Assembly (NCBI GenBank): GCA_016930135.1
Contig: JAFGHM010000005.1
Location: forward strand, 1 to 37,233
DNA from: Thermoplasmatota archaeon
Lineage (GTDB): Archaea > Thermoplasmatota > Thermoplasmata > UBA10834
Direction of reading: 5' to 3'
DNA length: 37,233 bases
The stretch's first letter is position 1; each line of letters starts with the position of its first letter. Position numbers and translations under genes: made by a program. Under the pieces are notes generated by a model that saw nothing but the letters and a program-made list of their open reading frames with translations, was not told the origin of the DNA and did no database searches. Positions 8,672-36,952 of the stretch are shown here, piece after piece.

Positions 8672-10135
8672 TCAGTCTGATATCCCGGCCTCTGAGACCA
8701 TGAAGACGGCCTCTGCCTCAGGCAGGTTCGGGGAGTCAATCAACCTGGCGATCCTCTTCCCTCCCTTGCTCTTCCGGAGGTAGATCCTGAATGTCGCAGT
8801 GTGGCCGACTATGTGCCCTCCTATCGGCCTGGTGGGGTCACCGAAGAACGCGTCTGGCTTCGCGGCGACCTGGTTCGTGACGGCTATGACCGCGTTGTGC
8901 AGGTCGCCGAACCTCAGAAGGTCGTGCATGTGCTTGTTCAGCATCTGCTGCCTCTCCGCGAGGGCGCCCCTGCCTATGTACTCGGCCCTGAAGTGGGCAG
9001 TCAGCGAATCGACGACCAAAAGGCGCACCGGGATCTCCCTGGCCATCTCCAGGGCCTTGTCGACCAGGAGCGTCTGGTGGTGGCTATTGAACGCGCGCGC
9101 GACATGTATCTTCTTGAGCACCTCCTCGGGGTCGAGGTCCTTCGCCTCCGCCATCTGGGTTATCCTCTCCGGCCTGAAGGTCTGCTCCGTGTCTATCATG
9201 ATGGTCTCGCCCTCCAGGCCGCCATCCTCCTTGGGCATCGTACAGTTGACCGCGAGCTGGTGACAGAGCTGCGTGTTGTGCAGTACCGTCGGCAGGTTGC
9301 CCCCTACATAAGAGTGCGTCTTCGGCACGACTAGGTCGTACACGAAGTCGTTGTAGACGAACGGTCTGACAGACCTGACCTCGTCCCAGGCCAGTGAGTC
9401 CTTCCGCTCAGAATACCTCGGGTCTTCGTAGCAGTCCTTGCTCATCGGCACAGCGACGTGGTCTCCTGGCTTGAGAGACCAGGCAGGTGTCCAAGCGATA
9501 TCTGAGTCACGCATGGTGAACAGCTTGTGCGGGCCCGTGAGCTCCAGAACCCGACCTCCTCCGGTGACTAACTCGTACAGCTGTGACACGCGTTCCTTGT
9601 AGATCGCAGCGGTGGGCGTCCTGGTGAGCACGCCCTCGTTCAGGCTTGGGACTGAGACGCCCTCGAGCGCCACTATTTGCCCGGCATCAAAGGGGACCGC
9701 TCGTCCCTCACCGAACCTACCGTACAGCTTCTCGATCGTCTCGGTGCGTGAAGTCCCGTCCCTGAAATAGACCAGGTCGGTCCTTGCGGACACGCACTTG
9801 CCGGAGCCGAACTCGCCGAAGAACTCGCTGATCGCACGGGTCTCGAAGCCTCCCCCCATGAGCTCGTCCAGGGACTTGGACCCTGACGTGAGTTTCGCGA
9901 CGCTCTTCCTCCTCTCGAGGATGACGTCACCGGTCTCGAAGCCCCCAACATCCGCAGCCTTCTTCGCCGCCGCTATGATTTTCGCGGCTGTCGCCTCGCC
10001 TATCTCTGCGACCTCCGCAAGGTTCCTGGGCGAGTCGACAGCGATCATCATCAGGTCGTTGTATCCCGCCTCTCTGAGCTTCTCGGCTATGGCGGGACCG
10101 ACACCTGGGAGCTTCTCGATATCCTCCTCGGACAT
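8672..10135 (-). CDS. radA: RadA recombinase precursor containing an intein
   Basis: The 487-codon precursor splices to a 313-residue RadA, a normal size. The N-terminal helix-hairpin-helix domain ([11 protein letters not shown], 10-20) is followed by the ATPase core. Walker A is GEFGSGK-TQ, split by the intein after Lys113. Walker B is LLVVDS, and loop L2 lies near [11 protein letters not shown]. RadA forms filaments on single-stranded DNA and performs strand exchange in homologous recombination. The ATG at 10135 is chosen because the conserved N-terminus begins there. A TATA-like CTTATATGC lies near 10173-10181 and AGGTG near the start. Without splicing the ATP-binding loop would be broken, so activity depends on intein removal. 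Confidence 0.95.
9275..9796 (-). mobile_element. Mini-intein in the Walker A motif of RadA (174 residues)
   Basis: The insert begins with Cys1 ([10 protein letters not shown], block A). It has the block B histidine motif (LTGPHKLF), a block F region ([16 protein letters not shown]) and ends in the catalytic His-Asn pair (VLHN), followed by Thr as the +1 extein residue. All residues for class 1 protein splicing are present. At 174 residues there is no room for a homing endonuclease and no LAGLIDADG motif is seen. It is therefore a mini-intein that cannot home by itself. The same insertion site (GSGK/TQ) is known in RadA of some Thermococcales. Confidence 0.93.
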
Positions 10136-10293
10136 ATGCTCGCACCTGCCCGTCTCCAAACCCCTGGGACAGCATATAAGGGTATTGATTGGAGGTATCC
10201 GAAAGTGGTGGGGCCTGCACCTGGCCAGCGGTTGCGGCCGAAAGAGCGCGCCCACCAAAAGGTATTAAGCAGACCTCGCTTTTCGAGGACCAG

Positions 10294-28608: not shown

Positions 28609-28962
28609 ATGCCCAGGCCAAAGAGATGCAGGAACGTCGCATTCGACCCGGCCCACAGGTTCTTCAAGCCACAGGGAGTGCCGATGAGCGATCTGGACTG
28701 CCTCGACCTCGGCCTGGATGAACTTGAGGCCCTAAGAATCGCGGATTTGCTGGGGATCTCTCAGACAGAGGGTGCGCACATGATGAACGTGTCTCAGCCC
28801 ACCTTCAACCGTATACTCAGCTCGGCCAGGTCCAAGGTTGCTGATAGCCTGGTCAACGCGCATGCGCTCCGCATCGAGTCCACCCAAGGGCACGTGGCGG
28901 TATCGAACGGGCGGGACGCGGCTAGAGGCGGCAGACGGAGCTGCAGGAGGTCCGGCACATGA
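28609..28962 (+). CDS. UPF0251/DUF134 family DNA-binding regulator
   Basis: The 117-residue protein begins MPRPKRCRNV, the family signature. It contains a sigma-like helix-turn-helix (LDELEALRIADLLGISQTEGAHMMNVSQPTFNRIL, about 36-71). The basic tail is short, and the NifX-type domain that is fused to this module in some bacteria is absent. In other genomes UPF0251 genes sit beside NifX-like and Mrp/MinD genes, and exactly those genes follow here. It probably regulates the downstream metal-sulfur block and perhaps itself. Its stop overlaps the next start by 4 nt. Confidence 0.88.
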   Translation: MPRPKRCRNVAFDPAHRFFKPQGVPMSDLDCLDLGLDELEALRIADLLGISQTEGAHMMNVSQPTFNRILSSARSKVADSLVNAHALRIESTQGHVAVSNGRDAARGGRRSCRRSGT

Positions 28963-29594
28963 GGGCAGCCACGATGGTCGTGCGCATACCTGGCAACTGG
29001 ATCGGCGACCTTGCGACCTCCTGCGACCTCTCCATCCGGGTGATCAAGTGCGTCCCCCGTGAGGGCTCCGGTGGGCAGAGCCTGGTCCAGATAGACACGG
29101 TCGACGGGACGACCGGCACGGACCTGGTGGAGAAGATACGCTCGGCCGAGCCCAAGTGCCGCGTGCAGCTCACATCGGCCGGACCGGGCAGGTTCATAGG
29201 CACTGTCGAGACGAACACATGCGTCGTCTGCAGGCTCGTGGCCGAATCGGGCTGTTTCCTTGACTCCGCAATGTCCATCGGCGACGGGACCATCATGTGG
29301 AACATCCTCGCGCCCAACGCTGCTGCACTGAGGCTGCTACACGACAAGGTGACGAAACTCGGCTGCTCTGTCGACCTGAAGAAGGTCTCGCTCCTCAGAA
29401 CCTCTTCGGAACTCACCAGGGCCCAGGAGAGAGTCCTGCAGATTGCTTACGAACTGGGCTACTTCGACATACCGAAGAAGATCGACCTCGCGAAGCTGGC
29501 GAAGAGATTGGAGATATCGAAGGCCACGCTCGACATCATGTTGAGGAGGGCCCAGAGGAAGGTCATCGCGAACCATGTCGGAGGGCTCCCGTAG
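28959..29594 (+). CDS. HTH_10-type transcription regulator with a Cys cluster
   Basis: The 211-residue protein ends in an HTH_10 (bacterio-opsin-activator-type) domain (about 151-205, ending DIMLRRAQRKVI). The N-terminal region (1-145) contains a CVVC pair plus another Cys (residues 88, 91, 99), which could bind a metal or iron-sulfur cluster or sense redox state. It overlaps the UPF0251 gene in the form ATGA. The two are therefore translated together, giving a two-regulator module at the head of the block. The sensor role is an inference from the cysteines. Confidence 0.82.
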   Translation: MRAATMVVRIPGNWIGDLATSCDLSIRVIKCVPREGSGGQSLVQIDTVDGTTGTDLVEKIRSAEPKCRVQLTSAGPGRFIGTVETNTCVVCRLVAESGCFLDSAMSIGDGTIMWNILAPNAAALRLLHDKVTKLGCSVDLKKVSLLRTSSELTRAQERVLQIAYELGYFDIPKKIDLAKLAKRLEISKATLDIMLRRAQRKVIANHVGGLP

Positions 29595-29661
29595 GCTCCT
29601 GCGAGGCTGGGCTAACCGGTTCGCCATGCAAGGCTTATACGGAACCCCATCTGGGTGAAGC

Positions 29662-30645
29662 ATGGCAGACGCCGCGAAGGCTCTGGGGTCAGAACGGAAG
29701 CTCGCCTGTGCCGAGGACATAGCCTTCGGGCCGATCGTCTCGAGACGCCTCGGGCAATCCTTGGGTGTCAACACCGTGCCGTGCAAGACCTGCGCATATT
29801 CTTGTGTCTACTGCCAGCTCGGGCCGACGCCCGACAGGACCGTCGTCAGGAAGGCCTATATCGATTCTGAATCCGTGGCGAGGGCGGTGGGGCGCACTCT
29901 CGGAAGGACGCGCACTCGCCCCGACTTCGTCACATTTCTCGGCTGCGGCGAGCCGACCCTAGCTGCCAATCTCGGGCAGTGCCTCGAAGCGGTCAAGAAG
30001 ATCTGGCCGGGCAGGACCGCGTTGCTGACAAGCGGCGCGCTGTTCTCCAGGCCGGAAGTCATGGACGAGGCGATGGGCTTCGACGTCGTCATGCCCACAG
30101 TCGCAGCCGGGAATGAGCGACTTTTCAAGAGGGTGCACCATCCGCACCCGAAGGTCGTCTTCGACGAGGTTGTCAGGGGGCTCAGGATGTTCTCTGAGCG
30201 GTTCGAGGGCAGGTTCCTGCCGGAGGTGATGCTCGTAGGGGGCATGAACGACACTGAGGCAAGTCTGCAGGAGATCGGCAGGACCCTGGATAGCATGCGG
30301 GTTGACGGTGTCCACTTGACCGCGCCCGTGCGAGCACCGACACAGAGCTGGGTGAGGCCACCAGCCGAGCACGCAGTTGCCCGCGCACTGAGCATACTCC
30401 CGAGAGCGGTCGACTTCACGAGACCTGAGGGGATGGCCGTGACCGAGATAGTCAGCATCCGTGTCGAAGAGCTCCTTGGCATCGCATCGATGCACCCTCT
30501 CACTGAGGGACAGGTGGTTTCGGCGCTCACAGATGCAGGTGCCTCCGAGAGAGAGGCGCTCGCGCTGCTGAACGGACTGGTGGAATCATCCAAGATGGTG
30601 AGGACGGGATACCGAGGCAAGAGCTTCTACAGGACAAGGAAGTGA
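29662..30645 (+). CDS. Radical SAM protein
   Basis: The 327-residue protein has the CxxxCxxC cluster motif (Cys44, Cys48, Cys51 in CAYSCVYC) preceded by FGPIVSRRLGQSLGVN, a pattern shared with a COG0731-like group. The partial TIM barrel shows FLGCGEPTL, the usual SAM-binding GxGEPT strand. A C-terminal helical region (about 255-327) resembles a small winged helix. The reaction is unknown. A TATA-like CTTATACG centred near 29636 is 26 nt before the ATG, predicting a leaderless start for this and possibly the next gene. Confidence 0.87.
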   Translation: MADAAKALGSERKLACAEDIAFGPIVSRRLGQSLGVNTVPCKTCAYSCVYCQLGPTPDRTVVRKAYIDSESVARAVGRTLGRTRTRPDFVTFLGCGEPTLAANLGQCLEAVKKIWPGRTALLTSGALFSRPEVMDEAMGFDVVMPTVAAGNERLFKRVHHPHPKVVFDEVVRGLRMFSERFEGRFLPEVMLVGGMNDTEASLQEIGRTLDSMRVDGVHLTAPVRAPTQSWVRPPAEHAVARALSILPRAVDFTRPEGMAVTEIVSIRVEELLGIASMHPLTEGQVVSALTDAGASEREALALLNGLVESSKMVRTGYRGKSFYRTRK

Positions 30646-30650
30646 ATCAC

Positions 30651-31244
30651 ATGGCTATTGAATGCGCCCGATGCAAGGCGAAGGACTGCTACGAAGGCAA
30701 GGACTGCTTCGGACTGGCTGGTGCGGCTATGAAGGGCTACACTGATCGGGAGCTGCGGTCGATGGCCGTCTCGGGTGACATCGAGGCGGACCATTACATG
30801 AAGCTCACCAGACTGGAGGAGATCATGCTGTACGCGAAGCGGATGGGCATGAACAAGCTCGGCATTGCCTTCTGCGTGGGCCTCTCGCGTGAGGCTGAGA
30901 CGATAGACCGAATACTGACGAAGCACGGGTTCGAGGTCCACAGCGCCTGCTGCAAGATATGCGGCATGGACAAGGCCAAGCTGGGCGTCAAGAAGCTGCA
31001 TGGAGGCTCTGGCATAGAGGCTGTCTGCAATCCGGTCGGGCAGGCTCTTAGGCTCCAACAGTGCGGGACCGAGATGAACATAGTGGTGGGGCTGTGCATA
31101 GGCCATGACATGATATTCACAAAGCACTCGCACGCGCCGGTGACCGTGCTGGTCGTGAAGGACCGGGTGCTTGCCCACAACCCGATCGGTGCGGTCTACA
31201 GCGACTACTACCTCGAGACGAAGTTCGGCCTGACGCAGGGATGA
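30651..31244 (+). CDS. DUF1847 cysteine-rich protein
   Basis: The 197-residue protein begins MAIECARCKAKDCYEGKDC, a CxxC-rich metal-binding opening typical of DUF1847. Later cysteine groups (SACCKICGMDK, AVCNPVGQA, QQCGTE) and the stretch GLCIGHDMIFTKHSHAPVTVLVVKDRVLAHNP are also characteristic. The function of the family is unknown; the cysteines suggest an iron-sulfur or zinc site. The ATG at 30651 lies 5 nt after the radical SAM stop, so the two genes are co-transcribed. Confidence 0.85.
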   Translation: MAIECARCKAKDCYEGKDCFGLAGAAMKGYTDRELRSMAVSGDIEADHYMKLTRLEEIMLYAKRMGMNKLGIAFCVGLSREAETIDRILTKHGFEVHSACCKICGMDKAKLGVKKLHGGSGIEAVCNPVGQALRLQQCGTEMNIVVGLCIGHDMIFTKHSHAPVTVLVVKDRVLAHNPIGAVYSDYYLETKFGLTQG

Positions 31245-31357
31245 CCTCCTGGCTGGACTTCACACCTGATCGGACGAACACAGCCTGTCCCGCGGCTAAC
31301 CTGTTTGCCGTCATTGGCTTAGCCTCTGGGGGATAAGTCCACCGTTGAGGCGTGAAG

Positions 31358-31744
31358 ATGGCCAGGAAGACAGACTACACGAAGAAGTCGTTCATAGTGA
31401 TCGGAACGCACGGAGCGGACCACCCAGAGAAGGCTACCATGACCTTCGCATGTGCCGGCGCCGCTCAGGCGATCGGCATCAAGACCAAGGTGTTCCTCGC
31501 GGGCGACGCGGTCGAGTTGGCGAGGAAGGGCTTCGCGAAGAAGCTGCCCAAGATCGAGGGCATGGCCCCCGTGGACGAGCTGATGGAGGGGTTCATCAGG
31601 GGAGGAGGGAAGGTCCAGGTGTGCATCCCATGCATGGAGTCGAGGCACATCTCGAAGAAGAACTACCTCGAAGACGTGGAGTTCATCAACCTGATGGACT
31701 TCGCAGCCGGGACCGTGGACGCCGACAGGGTCTTCACCTGCTAG
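31358..31744 (+). CDS. DsrE-like sulfur-relay family protein
   Basis: The 128-residue protein has the DsrE/DsrF-like fold pattern: an N-terminal strand (FIVIGTHG), helical TMTFACAGAAQAIG, a second strand KVFLAGDAVEL and a late CIPCMESR. The CxxC near 90-93 takes the place of the catalytic Cys of persulfide-carrying relatives. DsrE-type proteins accept or pass sulfane sulfur. It sits 14 nt before the Mrp ATPase gene, so sulfur delivery to cluster assembly is a fair inference. The ATG at 31358, after GAGGCG, is preferred over the GTG at 31352. Confidence 0.8.
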   Translation: MARKTDYTKKSFIVIGTHGADHPEKATMTFACAGAAQAIGIKTKVFLAGDAVELARKGFAKKLPKIEGMAPVDELMEGFIRGGGKVQVCIPCMESRHISKKNYLEDVEFINLMDFAAGTVDADRVFTC

Positions 31745-31758
31745 AGGAGGATGTCTCG

Positions 31759-32613
31759 ATGGCAACAGAAAGCCAAAACGTGCAAAAGAACATACCCTCC
31801 GCACCGAAGGCAGGACCGTCTTCGGTCGTCAAGGAGAACCTCGCGAAGGTCAAGCACAAGCTCGTCGTCATGAGCGGCAAGGGAGGTGTGGGCAAATCGA
31901 CGGTGGCCGTGAACCTCGCATTCGACCTGGCCCGGAGAGGGCTGAAGGTCGGCCTGCTTGACGCGGACATGCACGGGCCGAGCGTACCCAAGTTGCTGGG
32001 CATACCCAACCTGCCTTTGACCGTTGGCGAGAACGGCAAGATCGTGCCCATGTTGGTGCCTCCCGGCATCAAGGTCATCTCGATCGCGTTCCTCCTGATG
32101 AACAGGGACGCACCGGTGATCTGGAGGGGACCGATCAAGATGGGTGCCATCAAGCAATTCCTGGAGGAAGTCGAGTGGGGAGAGCTGGACTACCTGGTCG
32201 TGGACCTTCCACCGGGAACCGGGGACGAGCCTCTCAGTATCGCTCAGCTCCTGCCCGCGCCGGACGGAGCGGTAATCGTCACGACGCCTCAGGACGTCGC
32301 GCTGTTGAGCGTGAGAAAGTCGATCAACTTCGCAAAGACCGTCGGCCTGAGGGTGATAGGCCTCGTGGAGAACATGAGCGGGCTGGAATGCCCCCACTGC
32401 GGCAAGCAGATCGATGTCTTTGGGAACGGGATGGCCGAGAAGGCGGCACAGGACCTCTCAGTGCCTTTCCTGGGCAAGCTGCCCCTGAGCCTCGGTGTCT
32501 CCAGGAGCGGGGACGACGGGAAACCCTTCGTGCTCGCCAGTGAGGACGGTGTCTCGAAGAAGTTCGAGGAGATCGCGAACAAGATCGTCAGCTCGGTCGA
32601 GAAGAGGAAGTGA
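31759..32613 (+). CDS. Mrp/NBP35-type P-loop ATPase, iron-sulfur cluster carrier
   Basis: The 284-residue protein has the deviant Walker A SGKGGVGKST (39-48), DADMHGPS near 69-75, VVDLPPGTGDEP near 148-157 and the C-terminal CPHC pair (Cys211, Cys214) that binds a bridging [4Fe-4S] cluster in dimeric homologues. The family carries and transfers iron-sulfur clusters. A GAGGAGG lies about 8 nt before the ATG. The ORF track joins this to an upstream run of bases that is an out-of-frame shadow of the DsrE gene. In bacterial ORP loci an Mrp ATPase occurs beside NifX-like and MinD genes, as here. Confidence 0.92.
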   Translation: MATESQNVQKNIPSAPKAGPSSVVKENLAKVKHKLVVMSGKGGVGKSTVAVNLAFDLARRGLKVGLLDADMHGPSVPKLLGIPNLPLTVGENGKIVPMLVPPGIKVISIAFLLMNRDAPVIWRGPIKMGAIKQFLEEVEWGELDYLVVDLPPGTGDEPLSIAQLLPAPDGAVIVTTPQDVALLSVRKSINFAKTVGLRVIGLVENMSGLECPHCGKQIDVFGNGMAEKAAQDLSVPFLGKLPLSLGVSRSGDDGKPFVLASEDGVSKKFEEIANKIVSSVEKRK

Positions 32614-32644
32614 CGACCGGCAGGGGATTATGGAGGCGCATGAC

Positions 32645-32866
32645 ATGTCAGGTAACAGGGTTTTCAAATGCTACGCGTGCGGCAACGAATGGGAGGAGCC
32701 CTACGGCACTGGAAGACCTCTCGCGTGCCCCAAGTGCAGAAGCCCCAACATACACAGGACCGACGCCGACCGTGGCAAGAGAACGGCCGGAGGTGGCTTC
32801 GGAGCGGGCAGGGCTGCGTACGACCAGGGCAGAGGACGGGACATGTCCGGCCGTGGGCAAAGATGA
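32645..32866 (+). CDS. Zinc-ribbon protein with a Gly/Arg-rich tail
   Basis: The 73-residue protein has a zinc ribbon (CYACG and CPKC, about 9-31), then a tail rich in Gly, Arg and Asp (about 45-73). The start at 32645 is favoured by GGAGG about 8 nt upstream over the ATG at 32630. Its place between the Mrp and NifX genes suggests a partner in cluster assembly. The RG-rich tail is similar in style to that of the NifX-like protein two genes later. Confidence 0.72.
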   Translation: MSGNRVFKCYACGNEWEEPYGTGRPLACPKCRSPNIHRTDADRGKRTAGGGFGAGRAAYDQGRGRDMSGRGQR

Positions 32867-32876
32867 GGTGATGTAG

Positions 32877-33032
32877 ATGGAAGGAGAACTCGAGTTTGGT
32901 TCGAGCATATGCTACTGCCCGAAGTGCGAGAAGGAGTTCCCGCACAAGCACCGTGGCGTACCGTGCTCCGAGACGAAGTGCCCGAAATGTGGGTCGCCAA
33001 TGATAGGCAGGAAGTGCAGGGAGGAGAGCTGA
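32877..33032 (+). CDS. 51-residue double CxxC zinc-ribbon protein
   Basis: This ORF is too short for the track. It starts MEGELEFG and has CYCPKC and CPKC knuckles separated by a basic, His-containing loop ([10 protein letters not shown]) with an extra Cys. A Shine-Dalgarno GAGGTGAT is about 4-10 nt upstream. Its stop overlaps the NifX-like start (TGATG). It has the look of a rubredoxin-type or ribbon metal site; whether it binds zinc or iron is unknown. Confidence 0.68.
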
Positions 33033-33451
33033 TGAACGGCAAGAGGATATGTCTGACATCGACCGGGCCGAGACTGAGCGATCCGGCGGATCCGAGGTTC
33101 GGAAGGTGCGCGTATTTCATATTCGTGGACGAGGCGACGGGAGCGACGGAGGCCGCCCCCAACGACGCCAGGCTCCTGGGGAACGGTGCGGGCATCCAGG
33201 CGGCCCAAGACATCGTCACGAAAGGAGCGGGAGTCGTCATCACAGGCGACATGGGCCCGAACGCCTTCAGGGTGCTCAGCGCTGCCGGCGTGCGCGTGTT
33301 CGTGGGAGTCAATGGCTCCTGCGAGGCTGCGCTCGACGGCTATCGAAAGGGGCTGATGAAAGAGATTGGGTCGCCGACCGCCCCTGGACACCACGGCGGA
33401 AGAGGAGCCGGAAGGGGGCAGGGGATGGGCCGCGGAGGCGGATGGTTGTAG
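33032..33451 (+). CDS. NifX/dinitrogenase-cofactor family protein, first copy
   Basis: The 139-residue protein matches the NifX/MTH1175-like fold, with RFGRCAYFIFVD near 22-33 and GAGVVITGDMGPNAFRVLSAAGVRVFVGV near 65-93. In bacterial 'orange protein' homologues this fold holds a Mo-Cu-sulfide cluster; other relatives carry nitrogenase cofactor precursors. A C-terminal tail (about 117-139) is rich in Gly, Arg and two adjacent His. Cys26 and Cys97 are candidate ligands. A second NifX-like gene lies about 1 kb downstream. Confidence 0.85.
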   Translation: MNGKRICLTSTGPRLSDPADPRFGRCAYFIFVDEATGATEAAPNDARLLGNGAGIQAAQDIVTKGAGVVITGDMGPNAFRVLSAAGVRVFVGVNGSCEAALDGYRKGLMKEIGSPTAPGHHGGRGAGRGQGMGRGGGWL

Positions 33452-33453
33452 TG

Positions 33454-33936
33454 ATGACCGACGGCGTGAGCGACCGCAGGGATCTGACGAAGGAGCTGGA
33501 CCTCCTGGCGGAGAACGTCATCAGGATGCTCGAGGAGAACGACGCGAAGATATACTCGAGGGAGGTTATCGAGGAGTTCCGGAACCCATCCAACATAGGG
33601 CGCATGCAGGATGCGGACGGCGAAGGCGTCGGTGACGGCATCTGTGGGGACAGCATGGAGATCTATCTGAAGATCAAGGATGGCGTAATCGAGAGGTGCA
33701 CGTTCTTCACAGACGGCTGCGGCGCAACGATCGCCTGCGGGAGCAGGCTGACCAGGTTCGTCAAGGGGATGTCGGTTGAGGGAGCGAAGGCCGTGAAGCC
33801 TGCCAGCCTCATCCACCTGCTGAACGGCCTCCCGGAAGAGCATGTCCACTGCGCCTCGCTTGCCGTGGTAGCACTGAAGGGCGCCATAAGGAACTACGAG
33901 TCCAGGCAGAGGGCCAAGGAGGGCGCAAGAGCATGA
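33454..33936 (+). CDS. NifU/IscU-like iron-sulfur scaffold protein
   Basis: The 160-residue protein has the three scaffold cysteines in order: Cys64 (ICGDSMEI, followed by the conserved Asp66), Cys89 (TDGCGATIACGS) and Cys133 (HCASLAVVALKGAI). A short N-terminal extension precedes the fold. IscU/NifU scaffolds build clusters from iron and sulfide. No dedicated cysteine desulfurase (NifS/IscS) gene is in the window, so sulfur may come from the DsrE-like protein or another source. The start could be ATG 33442, GTG 33451 or ATG 33454; spacing from GGAGG is not decisive. Confidence 0.85.
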   Translation: MTDGVSDRRDLTKELDLLAENVIRMLEENDAKIYSREVIEEFRNPSNIGRMQDADGEGVGDGICGDSMEIYLKIKDGVIERCTFFTDGCGATIACGSRLTRFVKGMSVEGAKAVKPASLIHLLNGLPEEHVHCASLAVVALKGAIRNYESRQRAKEGARA

Positions 33937-34091
33937 GGTTCTTGAGATTCCGGTGCAGGAACTGCGGCCTGCAGATGGCTCTCAACGAGCCGCCTGAGAA
34001 GTGCTTCTCATGTGGCTCCACGGACATAGTCAGAGAAGGCTGGAGGCAGCGGTTCTCACAGTCGAAGGATGATCGGAAGAAGAGGAGTTGA
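33933..34091 (+). CDS. 52-residue rubredoxin-like zinc ribbon
   Basis: This ORF is too short for the track. It starts MRFLRFRCRNCG and has a second knuckle, CFSCG, with a short spacer, a single-ribbon metal site of the rubredoxin type. A basic tail follows (KDDRKKRS). The ATG overlaps the stop of the NifU-like gene in the form ATGA, so translation is coupled. It is one of three small ribbons in this block. Confidence 0.7.
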   Translation: MRFLRFRCRNCGLQMALNEPPEKCFSCGSTDIVREGWRQRFSQSKDDRKKRS

Positions 34092-34095
34092 TTGA

Positions 34096-34455
34096 TTGAA
34101 AGTATGCATACCAACCAACGGCCGCGGAGGGCTCGAGGATATCGTCTGCGAACACTTCGGGAGAGCGCCGACTTTCACGGTAGTCGATATGGACACGAAC
34201 TCCGTAGTCGTCGTGCCGAATGCCAGCGAGCACATGGGGGGCATGGGCAAGCCCCCCGAGCACATAATCAGTACTGGCTCCGAGGTGCTCGTGTGCTCAG
34301 AGCTGGGGCCGAGAGCGATCGGGATGTTCGAGTCCTACGGGGTCGAGGTCTTCGTGGGAGCTCGGGGAACGGTCAGGGAAGCCGTGGAGCTGTGGAGACA
34401 GGGCAAGCTAGAGAGGGCTTCGGACGTGAACGCGTGCCGGGAGCACCGGCACTGA
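34096..34455 (+). CDS. NifX/dinitrogenase-cofactor family protein, second copy
   Basis: The 119-residue protein starts at TTG with MKVCIPTNGRGG and has the family core EHFGRAPTFTVVD, then MGGMGKPPEHIISTGSEVLVCSELGPRAIGMF. A short tail ends CREHRH. It diverges from the first copy, which has a longer Gly/Arg-rich tail. Two copies in one operon suggest different metal or partner roles. It lies 4 nt after the rubredoxin-like stop. Confidence 0.85.
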   Translation: MKVCIPTNGRGGLEDIVCEHFGRAPTFTVVDMDTNSVVVVPNASEHMGGMGKPPEHIISTGSEVLVCSELGPRAIGMFESYGVEVFVGARGTVREAVELWRQGKLERASDVNACREHRH

Positions 34456-34525
34456 CGCGGACGGATGGCGCCGGCGGACGGCGTGGTCTGAGCGTGAATT
34501 CAGTCTATGAACAGGGTGAGCACGG

Positions 34526-35362
34526 TTGAGAATAAGCGTAGCGAGCGGCAAGGGCGGCACTGGCAAGACCCTTGTGGCGACCAACCTGGCCGCCGTCACT
34601 CAGTCATCGCTGCTGGTGGACCTCGATGTCGAGGAGCCGAACTGCTACATCTTCGTGGAGGGCGAGCAGAGGAGCGAGCAGGTCTTCCGGCCCGTGCCTG
34701 TGATTGACGAGGAGAAGTGCACGAGGTGCGGCACATGTGCGGAGGTGTGCGAGTATCATGCGATCGTCGCTCTCCCTAAGACGATAATGACCTTCGAGGA
34801 GCTCTGCCACGGGTGCGGGGCGTGCAGCATGTTCTGCCCCGAGGGCGCTATCACGGAGAAAGGCAGGGCCATGGGGGAAATCATATCCGTCCAGGCGAAC
34901 GGCTGCCAGAAGCTGCTCTATGGCAGGATGAGGATAGGGGAGCCAGCGCCCGTGCCTCTCATACGCCAGGTCAAGAAGAGGATACCGAAGGACATCCTGG
35001 CCATCGTCGACTGCCCTCCCGGAACCGCTTGTCCTGCGGTCGAGAGCATGCGCGGGACCGACTTCTGCGTGCTGGTGACCGAGCCAACACCGTTCGGCTT
35101 CCACGACCTGAAGCTCGCACTCGAGGTGGTCAGGAAGCTCAGGATACCGCACGCGGTCTTCGTCAACAAGCACGGCCTACCCGGCCCGGACATCCATGAG
35201 TATTGCAGAAGCAAGGGCATACCAGTCGTAGGGCAACTGCGGCATGACATGCAGATTGCCAGAAACTACTCAGAGGGACGGATGATCGTGACCGACCCGG
35301 CGCACAGGAAGACCTTCGAAGGGCTCCTGAAGCGAGTGCTGGAGGAGGCTTCCAGGCGATGA
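34526..35362 (+). CDS. MinD-family ATPase with an inserted 2[4Fe-4S] ferredoxin, first copy
   Basis: The 278-residue protein begins with the deviant Walker A SGKGGTGKT (7-15). A ferredoxin insert (about 60-110) has Cys65/68/71/75 and Cys94/97/100/104. The ATPase fold then resumes (AIVDCPPGTACPA, VTEPTPFGFHDL). This is the COG1149 type seen as a tandem pair in bacterial ORP loci. The start is TTG after a weak GGGTGAG. It overlaps the second copy by 4 nt. The family probably couples ATP use to an iron-sulfur or redox step. Confidence 0.9.
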   Translation: MRISVASGKGGTGKTLVATNLAAVTQSSLLVDLDVEEPNCYIFVEGEQRSEQVFRPVPVIDEEKCTRCGTCAEVCEYHAIVALPKTIMTFEELCHGCGACSMFCPEGAITEKGRAMGEIISVQANGCQKLLYGRMRIGEPAPVPLIRQVKKRIPKDILAIVDCPPGTACPAVESMRGTDFCVLVTEPTPFGFHDLKLALEVVRKLRIPHAVFVNKHGLPGPDIHEYCRSKGIPVVGQLRHDMQIARNYSEGRMIVTDPAHRKTFEGLLKRVLEEASRR

Positions 35363-36282
35363 AAGAGATAGTGGTCCTGAGCGGAAAGGGCGGCACGGGG
35401 AAGACGATGCTCGTGGCCAACTACGCCGCCCTGGCCAAAGAAGCGATTCTTGCGGACTGCGATGTCGACGCACCCAATCTGCACCTGCTGATGGCACCCG
35501 AGGTCAAGGAATCGGGGCCCTTTCCCAGCATGAAAGCTGCATCTATCGATGGAGCCAAATGCGTCAACTGCGGTGAGTGCGTCCCTCTCTGCCGGTTCGA
35601 GGCGATCAAGTGGATAGGCAATTCGAGCCTCAGGAAGGTCGCGATCTCGGTCGACGAGTGCGAAGGGTGTGGCGTCTGCGCCCGAGCCTGTCCTGAGGGG
35701 GCGATCTCGATGGTCGAGCGCAAAGGCGGGGACTGGTTCATCTCCTCGACAAGGTACGGGACCATGGTGCACGCGCTGCTCGAACCAGGAGGGGAGAACT
35801 CAGGAAAGCTGGTTGCTCTGGTCAAGCAGAAGGCGAGGATGCTAGCAAGGAACACTGGTGCGAAGCTGGTCATCGTCGACGGACCTCCAGGGATCGGATG
35901 CGCCGCAATATCGGCCCTCTCGGGAGCGAACCTGGTGTTACTTGTGACCGAGCCCACGAAGTCCGGGGCTAGCGATTTCACGAGAGCCCTTAACCTGGCG
36001 GAGTCCTTCAGGTGCAAGACCTGCTACGTCATCAACAGGGCCGACATCAACGCACGCATGGCGGAGGAGATAGACAGGACAGCAGCAGACAAGGGGGTGC
36101 AATGCGCGGGTAAGATACCTTACGACGATGAGGTGGTCGCATCGATGGCCTTGGGCAAGACAGTCGTCGAATCCGGTAAAGGAGAGGCCAGGAAGAGCAT
36201 AGTGGATTCGTGGAACGCGCTCATGGACATCGTCAGCACTGGCGACGATACGGCAGCCTCGGAGGGCCCCCATGACAGGTGA
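35359..36282 (+). CDS. MinD-family ATPase with an inserted 2[4Fe-4S] ferredoxin, second copy
   Basis: The 307-residue protein starts MKEIVVLSGKGGTGKT. The ferredoxin insert has Cys68/71/74/78 and Cys101/104/107/111, and a longer middle region carries a basic stretch. Later ATPase motifs are VIVDGPPGIGCAA and VTEPTKSGASDF. It is a paralogue of the overlapping upstream gene; the pair probably forms a heterodimer. Its end overlaps the metallo-hydrolase start by 11 nt. Confidence 0.9.
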   Translation: MKEIVVLSGKGGTGKTMLVANYAALAKEAILADCDVDAPNLHLLMAPEVKESGPFPSMKAASIDGAKCVNCGECVPLCRFEAIKWIGNSSLRKVAISVDECEGCGVCARACPEGAISMVERKGGDWFISSTRYGTMVHALLEPGGENSGKLVALVKQKARMLARNTGAKLVIVDGPPGIGCAAISALSGANLVLLVTEPTKSGASDFTRALNLAESFRCKTCYVINRADINARMAEEIDRTAADKGVQCAGKIPYDDEVVASMALGKTVVESGKGEARKSIVDSWNALMDIVSTGDDTAASEGPHDR

Positions 36283-36952
36283 GAGAGCAAGGGTGTCGAT
36301 CGTGTACGACTCCGTCGCGGTCCAGGGGTTCGAGACGGGATGGGGGTTCTCGGCGCTCATACACACATCTGACAGCATGGTCTTGTTCGACTGTGGCTGG
36401 GACGGACACGTTCTGATCAGGAACCTTGCGCGCCTTGGCGTGCACGCAGCGGCGATAGACAAGGTCGTGCTGTCCCACATGCACTGGGACCACATATCTG
36501 GTCTGACGGAGCTGCTGTCTCAGACGACCCCCGCAAAGCCGATCGAGGTCTACCTCCCTGAAGCGTTCTCGCAGAATCTCAAGAGGGAGATCGTGAGGCA
36601 CGCGATCGTCACAGAGGTCGAAGGGCCTTACGAGATCGCCACCGGTGTAATCAGCACGGGAGCACTCGGATCCGATATCAAGGAGCAGTCCCTGGTTGTC
36701 CGCTCCGGCGAGAAGGCTGCGGTGCTAACAGGCTGCGCTCACCCGGGATTGAGGGCAATAATGGCAAGGGCTTCCGAGATCGCCAAGCCGACCGCGCTCA
36801 TCGGAGGATTCCATGGAGCGCGCGCGGACGATGTGCCGAAGGACCTGGAACTCCTGGTCCCATGCCACTGCACCCAGGCAAAGACGGAGCTGCTGAAGGC
36901 ATTCGGAGATAGGGCCTCGGAGGGATTGGCCGGGGCCAGCTATACTCTATGA
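36272..36952 (+). CDS. Metallo-beta-lactamase-fold protein at the end of the NifX/MinD block
   Basis: The 226-residue protein has SHMHWDH (68-74), a LTGCAHPG segment and a late GGFHGA; these supply metal ligands of the fold. It resembles the group annotated as dihydropterin/RFAP-synthase-like metallo-hydrolases, which are common beside redox and cluster genes. The ATG overlaps the second MinD gene and follows GGAGGG by about 7 nt. The exact reaction is unknown. Confidence 0.82.
   Translation: MTGERARVSIVYDSVAVQGFETGWGFSALIHTSDSMVLFDCGWDGHVLIRNLARLGVHAAAIDKVVLSHMHWDHISGLTELLSQTTPAKPIEVYLPEAFSQNLKREIVRHAIVTEVEGPYEIATGVISTGALGSDIKEQSLVVRSGEKAAVLTGCAHPGLRAIMARASEIAKPTALIGGFHGARADDVPKDLELLVPCHCTQAKTELLKAFGDRASEGLAGASYTL

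Follow-up and report, generated by a model that had tools for sequence, protein, structure and literature searches.

Three small cysteine-ribbon proteins in an archaeal gene cluster resembling the Desulfovibrio orange-protein complex

Within the window, the 37,233-nucleotide stretch of Thermoplasmatota DNA analyzed here, a run of plus-strand genes separated by short gaps or overlapping extends from position 28609 to 36952. In order, the run encodes a DUF134 helix-turn-helix protein (28609–28962), which is a probable regulator of the cluster; a putative HTH_10 regulator whose gene overlaps that of DUF134 (28959–29594); a radical SAM protein (29662–30645); a cysteine-rich DUF1847 protein (30642–31244); a DsrE-family sulfur-carrier-like protein (31352–31744); an Mrp/ApbC iron-sulfur carrier ATPase (31759–32613); the small proteins P1 (32645–32866) and P2 (32877–33032); NifX1 (33032–33451), a NifX/ORP-like domain (PF02579) with a Gly-rich tail; a NifU-like scaffold (PF01592; 33454–33936, with an alternative GTG start at 33451); the small protein P3 (33933–34091); NifX2 (34096–34455; TTG start), a second NifX/ORP-like protein; the paralogous MinD-like P-loop ATPases CooC1 (34526–35362; TTG start) and CooC2 (35359–36282), both Orp3/Orp4-like with inserted 4Fe-4S motifs; and, as the final gene, a metallo-beta-lactamase-fold (MBL) protein (36272–36952). 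For the radical SAM gene, which lies inside the run, no match was found at the corresponding place in six syntenic relatives.

P1, P2, and P3, of 73, 51, and 52 residues, sit between the end of Mrp (32613) and the start of NifX2 (34096), just as the first-pass annotation had described three small cysteine-ribbon reading frames at this position. P1 has a CxxC-x15-CxxC pattern, a WxEPYGTGRP motif, and a Gly/Arg-rich C-terminal tail, and would be 78 residues long if translated from an in-frame ATG at 32630. P2 carries the pattern CxCPxC...H..RG.PC....CPxCG.xM.G..C, and P3 is a rubredoxin-like protein with CxxCG-x11-CFxCG followed by REGWxxR. The P2 stop and the NifX1 start have one nucleotide in common (TGATG, 33030–33034), and the NifU stop and P3 start overlap by four (ATGA, 33933–33936), arrangements that favor translational coupling. 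Overlap of the ribbon genes with scaffold genes, as originally noted, is therefore correct for P2/NifX1 and NifU/P3 and incorrect for P1, which overlaps no gene and starts ~16–31 nucleotides past Mrp.

By sequence, the window's module resembles the orange-protein (ORP) complex of Desulfovibrio in a split archaeal version. The D. vulgaris complex (Orp3, Orp4, Orp5, Orp8, and Orp9/MrpORP) likewise combines paired MinD-like 4Fe-4S ATPases, an ORP/NifX protein, and an Mrp carrier, and the Desulfovibrio MrpORP hands Fe-S clusters to Orp3/Orp4/Orp8 (PMC6345978). CooC1 and CooC2 both contain CbiA/ParA plus Fer4, which is the Orp3/Orp4 architecture, and CooC1 used as a query matched the window's CooC2 at 34% identity. 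The best solved relative of the NifX1 profile was ORP 2WFB (E 9e-26), and the best NCBIfam match of Mrp was MrpORP (NF041136), at 362.9 bits over model positions 2–254 of 365. This score falls below the cutoff of 450 because the second (NifX) domain is a separate gene here; the window contains no two-domain Mrp-NifX fusion of the MrpORP type. The module differs from the Desulfovibrio complex in being archaeal, in its separate Mrp and NifX proteins, and in the addition of NifU, DsrE, DUF1847, DUF134, and three ribbons, and the descriptions of the ORP complex that we compared name no ribbon subunit.

P1, P2, and P3 are genuine genes that are conserved within this archaeal cluster. Searches covering 21 genomes of the window's order found all three in the same order at one locus in G003, G013, G014, G015, and G020, and found P2 and P3 in G018, where a Gly/Arg-rich CRCGC reading frame (locus L035) takes the place of P1; the order of the ribbon genes is fixed across three genera of the window's family. 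Among 19 genomes of that family, the module ATPase CooC1 is present in seven, P2 and P3 in exactly those seven, and P1 in six of the seven, although these carriers share ancestry and do not represent seven independent events. In the other 12 family genomes, CooC1 is absent and no ribbon was matched with confidence. Two genomes of a sister family also carry CooC1, on contigs too short to show ribbon positions. In the family alignments, the metal-ligand cysteines of all three proteins are invariant: P2 retains seven cysteines (12, 14, 17, 30, 35, 38, and 47) and His23 in 7/7 sequences, CxxCG, KCFxC, and the GW pair persist in P3, and GTGRP and the two CxxC knuckles persist in P1. Between closest relatives, dN/dS was 0.07–0.09 for P2, 0.20–0.32 for P3, and 0.23–0.42 for P1, within the range of NifU (0.17–0.24) and NifX2 (0.29–0.46). 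The reading frames are short, two of them below usual length cutoffs, and might thus be chance or artefactual open frames. However, their position, frame, and cysteines are kept in six to seven genomes of three genera, their dN/dS ratios are well below 1, and P2 occurs in distant phyla. On the strength of conservation, synteny, cysteine invariance, and dN/dS, we reject the chance-frame explanation, which we regard as extremely improbable. The expectation in the first-pass annotation that syntenic loci would retain the cysteines and reading frames was thus borne out, and the gene overlaps and co-inheritance point, as it had proposed, to coupled roles with the NifX, NifU, and Mrp genes. In G003, an additional DUF5320-like gene (L030; below the Pfam cutoff) with a CRCG motif and a coiled coil lies between Mrp and P1.

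The ribbons had been viewed as one matched set, a description that did not survive comparison, as P1 is similar to a DUF134 ribbon, P3 is a lineage-restricted rubredoxin-like protein, and P2 crosses phyla. A P1-type ribbon is fused to the C-terminus of DUF134 proteins in G025, G028, G233, and G262, which account for 4 of the 30 DUF134 proteins inspected; one of the four (L149) has a partial pattern. These fused ribbons share with P1 the pattern [FY]xCxxCxxxWxEP...CPxCGS, and the G025 fusion also has the GTGRP motif. The P1 search matches in G025 and G028 were not accepted as P1 genes because they are DUF134 C-termini, and hence serve as evidence of fusion. Unlike the fused ribbons, P1 is encoded by a separate gene and has a Gly/Arg tail (33% Gly, net charge +5), and the DUF134 protein of the window has no ribbon of its own. 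Because this ribbon is found on DUF134 proteins and is absent from the window's DUF134, P1 is most simply, and probably, a regulator ribbon that has become detached and carries a Gly/Arg tail. Its probable link to the regulator rests on ribbon similarity to those four proteins. P1 is also weakly similar to RNA polymerase subunit P.

Outside the window's family, P3 is nearly absent. The window copy narrowly passes the gathering score of RUBY_RBDX (PF21349; 28.3 bits, cutoff 26.5), and a close relative scores 19.9 bits. P3 departs from RUBY_RBDX proteins in standing alone, in having a second knuckle without the usual proline of CPxCG (CFSCG), and in its conserved REGWxxR tail. A moderate-confidence AlphaFold model of P3 shows a three-stranded ribbon resembling those of rubrerythrin and MCM, without significance: when PDB structures were searched with this model in Foldseek, no match was significant, the best hits (lowest E 0.025) being generic ribbons and rubrerythrin. 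P3 is a lineage-restricted rubredoxin-like protein, probably coupled to NifU, and the overlap of the two genes suggests a redox or metal function tied to NifU.

P2 is the founding member of an undescribed family, which is found alongside ORP-like machinery in many archaea and some bacteria. A P2 profile search yielded convincing matches in 58 of 293 genomes of the phylum, a count from which weak matches inside long reading frames (E > about 3e-5) were excluded, and P2 loci also occur in Chloroflexi, Dehalococcoidia, Dojkabacteria, Kazan, Spirochaetota, and Ethanoperedens. Across the 293 genomes, 52 have both P2 and CooC1, 6 have P2 only, 15 have CooC1 only, and 220 have neither (Fisher P 5e-37, with no correction for relatedness); the genomes with an ATPase and no detected P2, together with those showing the reverse, weigh against the module role proposed for P2 below. 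The corresponding numbers for P2 and DUF134 are 49 with both, 9 with P2 only, 30 with DUF134 only, and 205 with neither. CooC1 lies no more than 4 kb from P2 at 42 of 59 P2 loci, DUF134 lies within 6 kb at 32, and nearly every P2 locus has NifX, Mrp, CooC, or DUF134 as a neighbor. The order at one Chloroflexi locus is P2-NifX1-NifX2-NifU-CooC1-CooC2. At seven Patescibacteria loci (L042, L044, L045, L048–L050, and L054), P2 directly precedes DUF134, and NifX and CooC were not detected in the flanks that were fetched. Matches in Lactobacillus (L057–L071) were rejected as P2 because they fall inside a long protein of ~1,450 residues, which we take to be a PolC-type DNA polymerase III. A search of plasmid records for P2 found nothing. 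The window's P2 matched no Pfam or NCBIfam model above cutoff, and 22 P2 members gave weak, scattered matches to these models. Sequence comparison with the PDB identified no solved structure close to P2, and a Foldseek search of the PDB with a moderate-confidence AlphaFold model gave no significant match (best 1dfx, E 0.42). In the literature on DUF134, COG1433, and NifX with zinc ribbons, we found no description of this family, nor did we find experimental work on relatives of P1, P2, or P3.

The P2 core reads CxCPxCG...PH..RGxPC....CPxCGxxM. In 22 archaeal and bacterial members, six cysteines are invariant, the histidine is present in nearly all, and the seventh cysteine is common but not universal. 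Judged by these putative metal-ligand residues, which exceed what a ribbon needs, P2 is more than a simple ribbon. The original description of all three proteins as ribbons accordingly requires amendment for P2, with its seven family-invariant cysteines and one histidine as against the four cysteines of a plain ribbon. In three genomes, P2 forms the N-terminal part of a larger protein with a C-terminal ferredoxin domain (2x4Fe-4S; L136:4723–5199, L040:5196–5672, and L043:1682–2149); the ferredoxin part was established for L136 and L040, for L043, which is closely related to L040, the reading covered the shared P2 part and the length. Directly beside the P2 gene at L135 (5918–7309), and also at L053, a cation-efflux (CDF) transporter is fused to a NifX domain, an arrangement that may connect P2 with metal homeostasis.

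These features of P2 bear on whether all three ribbons could be ordinary one-domain zinc-finger micro-proteins whose zinc is structural and which serve as small regulators or binding adaptors in the manner of haloarchaeal CPxCG proteins such as Brz, with their place in the operon reflecting co-regulation rather than cluster chemistry. Micro-proteins of the CPxCG type are widespread in archaea, zinc is bound by most of those tested, and one is a transcriptional regulator (PMC11241148, PMC2253796); in Haloferax, zinc is bound by most and no metal by some (PMC11241148). By size and motif, P2 (51 residues) and P3 (52 residues) qualify loosely as C(P)XCG micro-proteins, P1 has 73 residues, and the similarities of P1 to DUF134-fused ribbons and RNA polymerase subunit P would also fit such a role. 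P2 differs from these proteins, however, in its six to seven conserved cysteines, three of them additional, and its histidine, in its fixed ORP-like context, in its fusions to ferredoxins, and in tracking ORP-type ATPases across a phylum. We consider the zinc micro-protein explanation doubtful for the three as a group. As to the metal in the ribbons, sequence cannot distinguish zinc from iron.

The tails of several module proteins raise a different possibility, namely a metal-sulfide store like that of IssA, in which cationic tails on NifX1, P1, and most P2 proteins outside the window's family would hold an anionic metal-sulfide polymer and the cysteine sites of the ribbons would hand out metal. 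IssA of Pyrococcus furiosus is a NifX-domain protein with a cationic, Gly-rich tail for which thioferrate binding has been proposed (PMC5524996), and NifX1 likewise joins a NifX-type globular domain (PF02579) to a Gly-rich basic tail with 46% Gly, three Lys/Arg residues, and no acidic residue. Outside the window's family, the 25 residues that precede the P2 core contain at least 30% Gly in 33 of 46 proteins and have a net charge of at least +2 in 40 of 46, and the tail of P1 is also glycine-rich and cationic. However, the window's tails are short, at 24–30 residues (24 in NifX1) compared with 70 in IssA; within the window's family, an acidic N-terminus replaces the cationic tail of P2; and glycine-rich tails may have other uses. 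IssA is, moreover, a single protein, whereas the short-tailed NifX proteins of the window belong to an ATPase/Mrp operon. We think a store of this kind unlikely.

The explanation that best accounts for the whole, held with a little less than even confidence, is a split archaeal ORP module in which each of the three ribbons is an accessory subunit with a role of its own. In the scheme of metals, contacts, and transfer direction that we infer, the module presumably serves, in the absence of oxygen, to build or retain a metal-sulfide cluster, Fe-S or other, with DUF134 and HTH_10 as regulators, DsrE as a sulfur-carrier-like protein, NifU as a scaffold, Mrp as a carrier, the two ORP/NifX proteins as cluster holders, and two 4Fe-4S MinD-like ATPases. 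P2 would be a core accessory cysteine-rich metal protein, combining a ribbon-type site with a histidine and two or three further conserved thiols, and would link the Mrp/NifX proteins to the ferredoxin-containing ATPases, either as a carrier or as an adaptor. A more specific version, in which P2 is a dedicated subunit of the ORP-type ATPase/NifX machinery that bears a second metal or Fe-S center and relays metal-sulfide units, with Mrp/NifX on one side and the MinD-like ferredoxin ATPases on the other, is one we advance tentatively and rate well short of an even chance. P3, co-translated with NifU, would supply electrons or metal to NifU-dependent cluster assembly, and P1 would most likely sense cluster or metal status for the operon. 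The roles of metal donor, electron carrier, or adaptor initially suggested for the ribbons are putative. P2 offers a direct handle on the product of the module: it is small, easily expressed, and, in archaea as in candidate bacterial phyla, almost always found with these ATPases. It also illustrates that tiny ribbons missed by gene finders can be core subunits.

Elsewhere in the window, on the minus strand (8672–10258), lies a RadA-like reading frame whose Walker A region (GEFGSGK) is apparently split by a mini-intein that ends ...VLHN before TQLCHQ.
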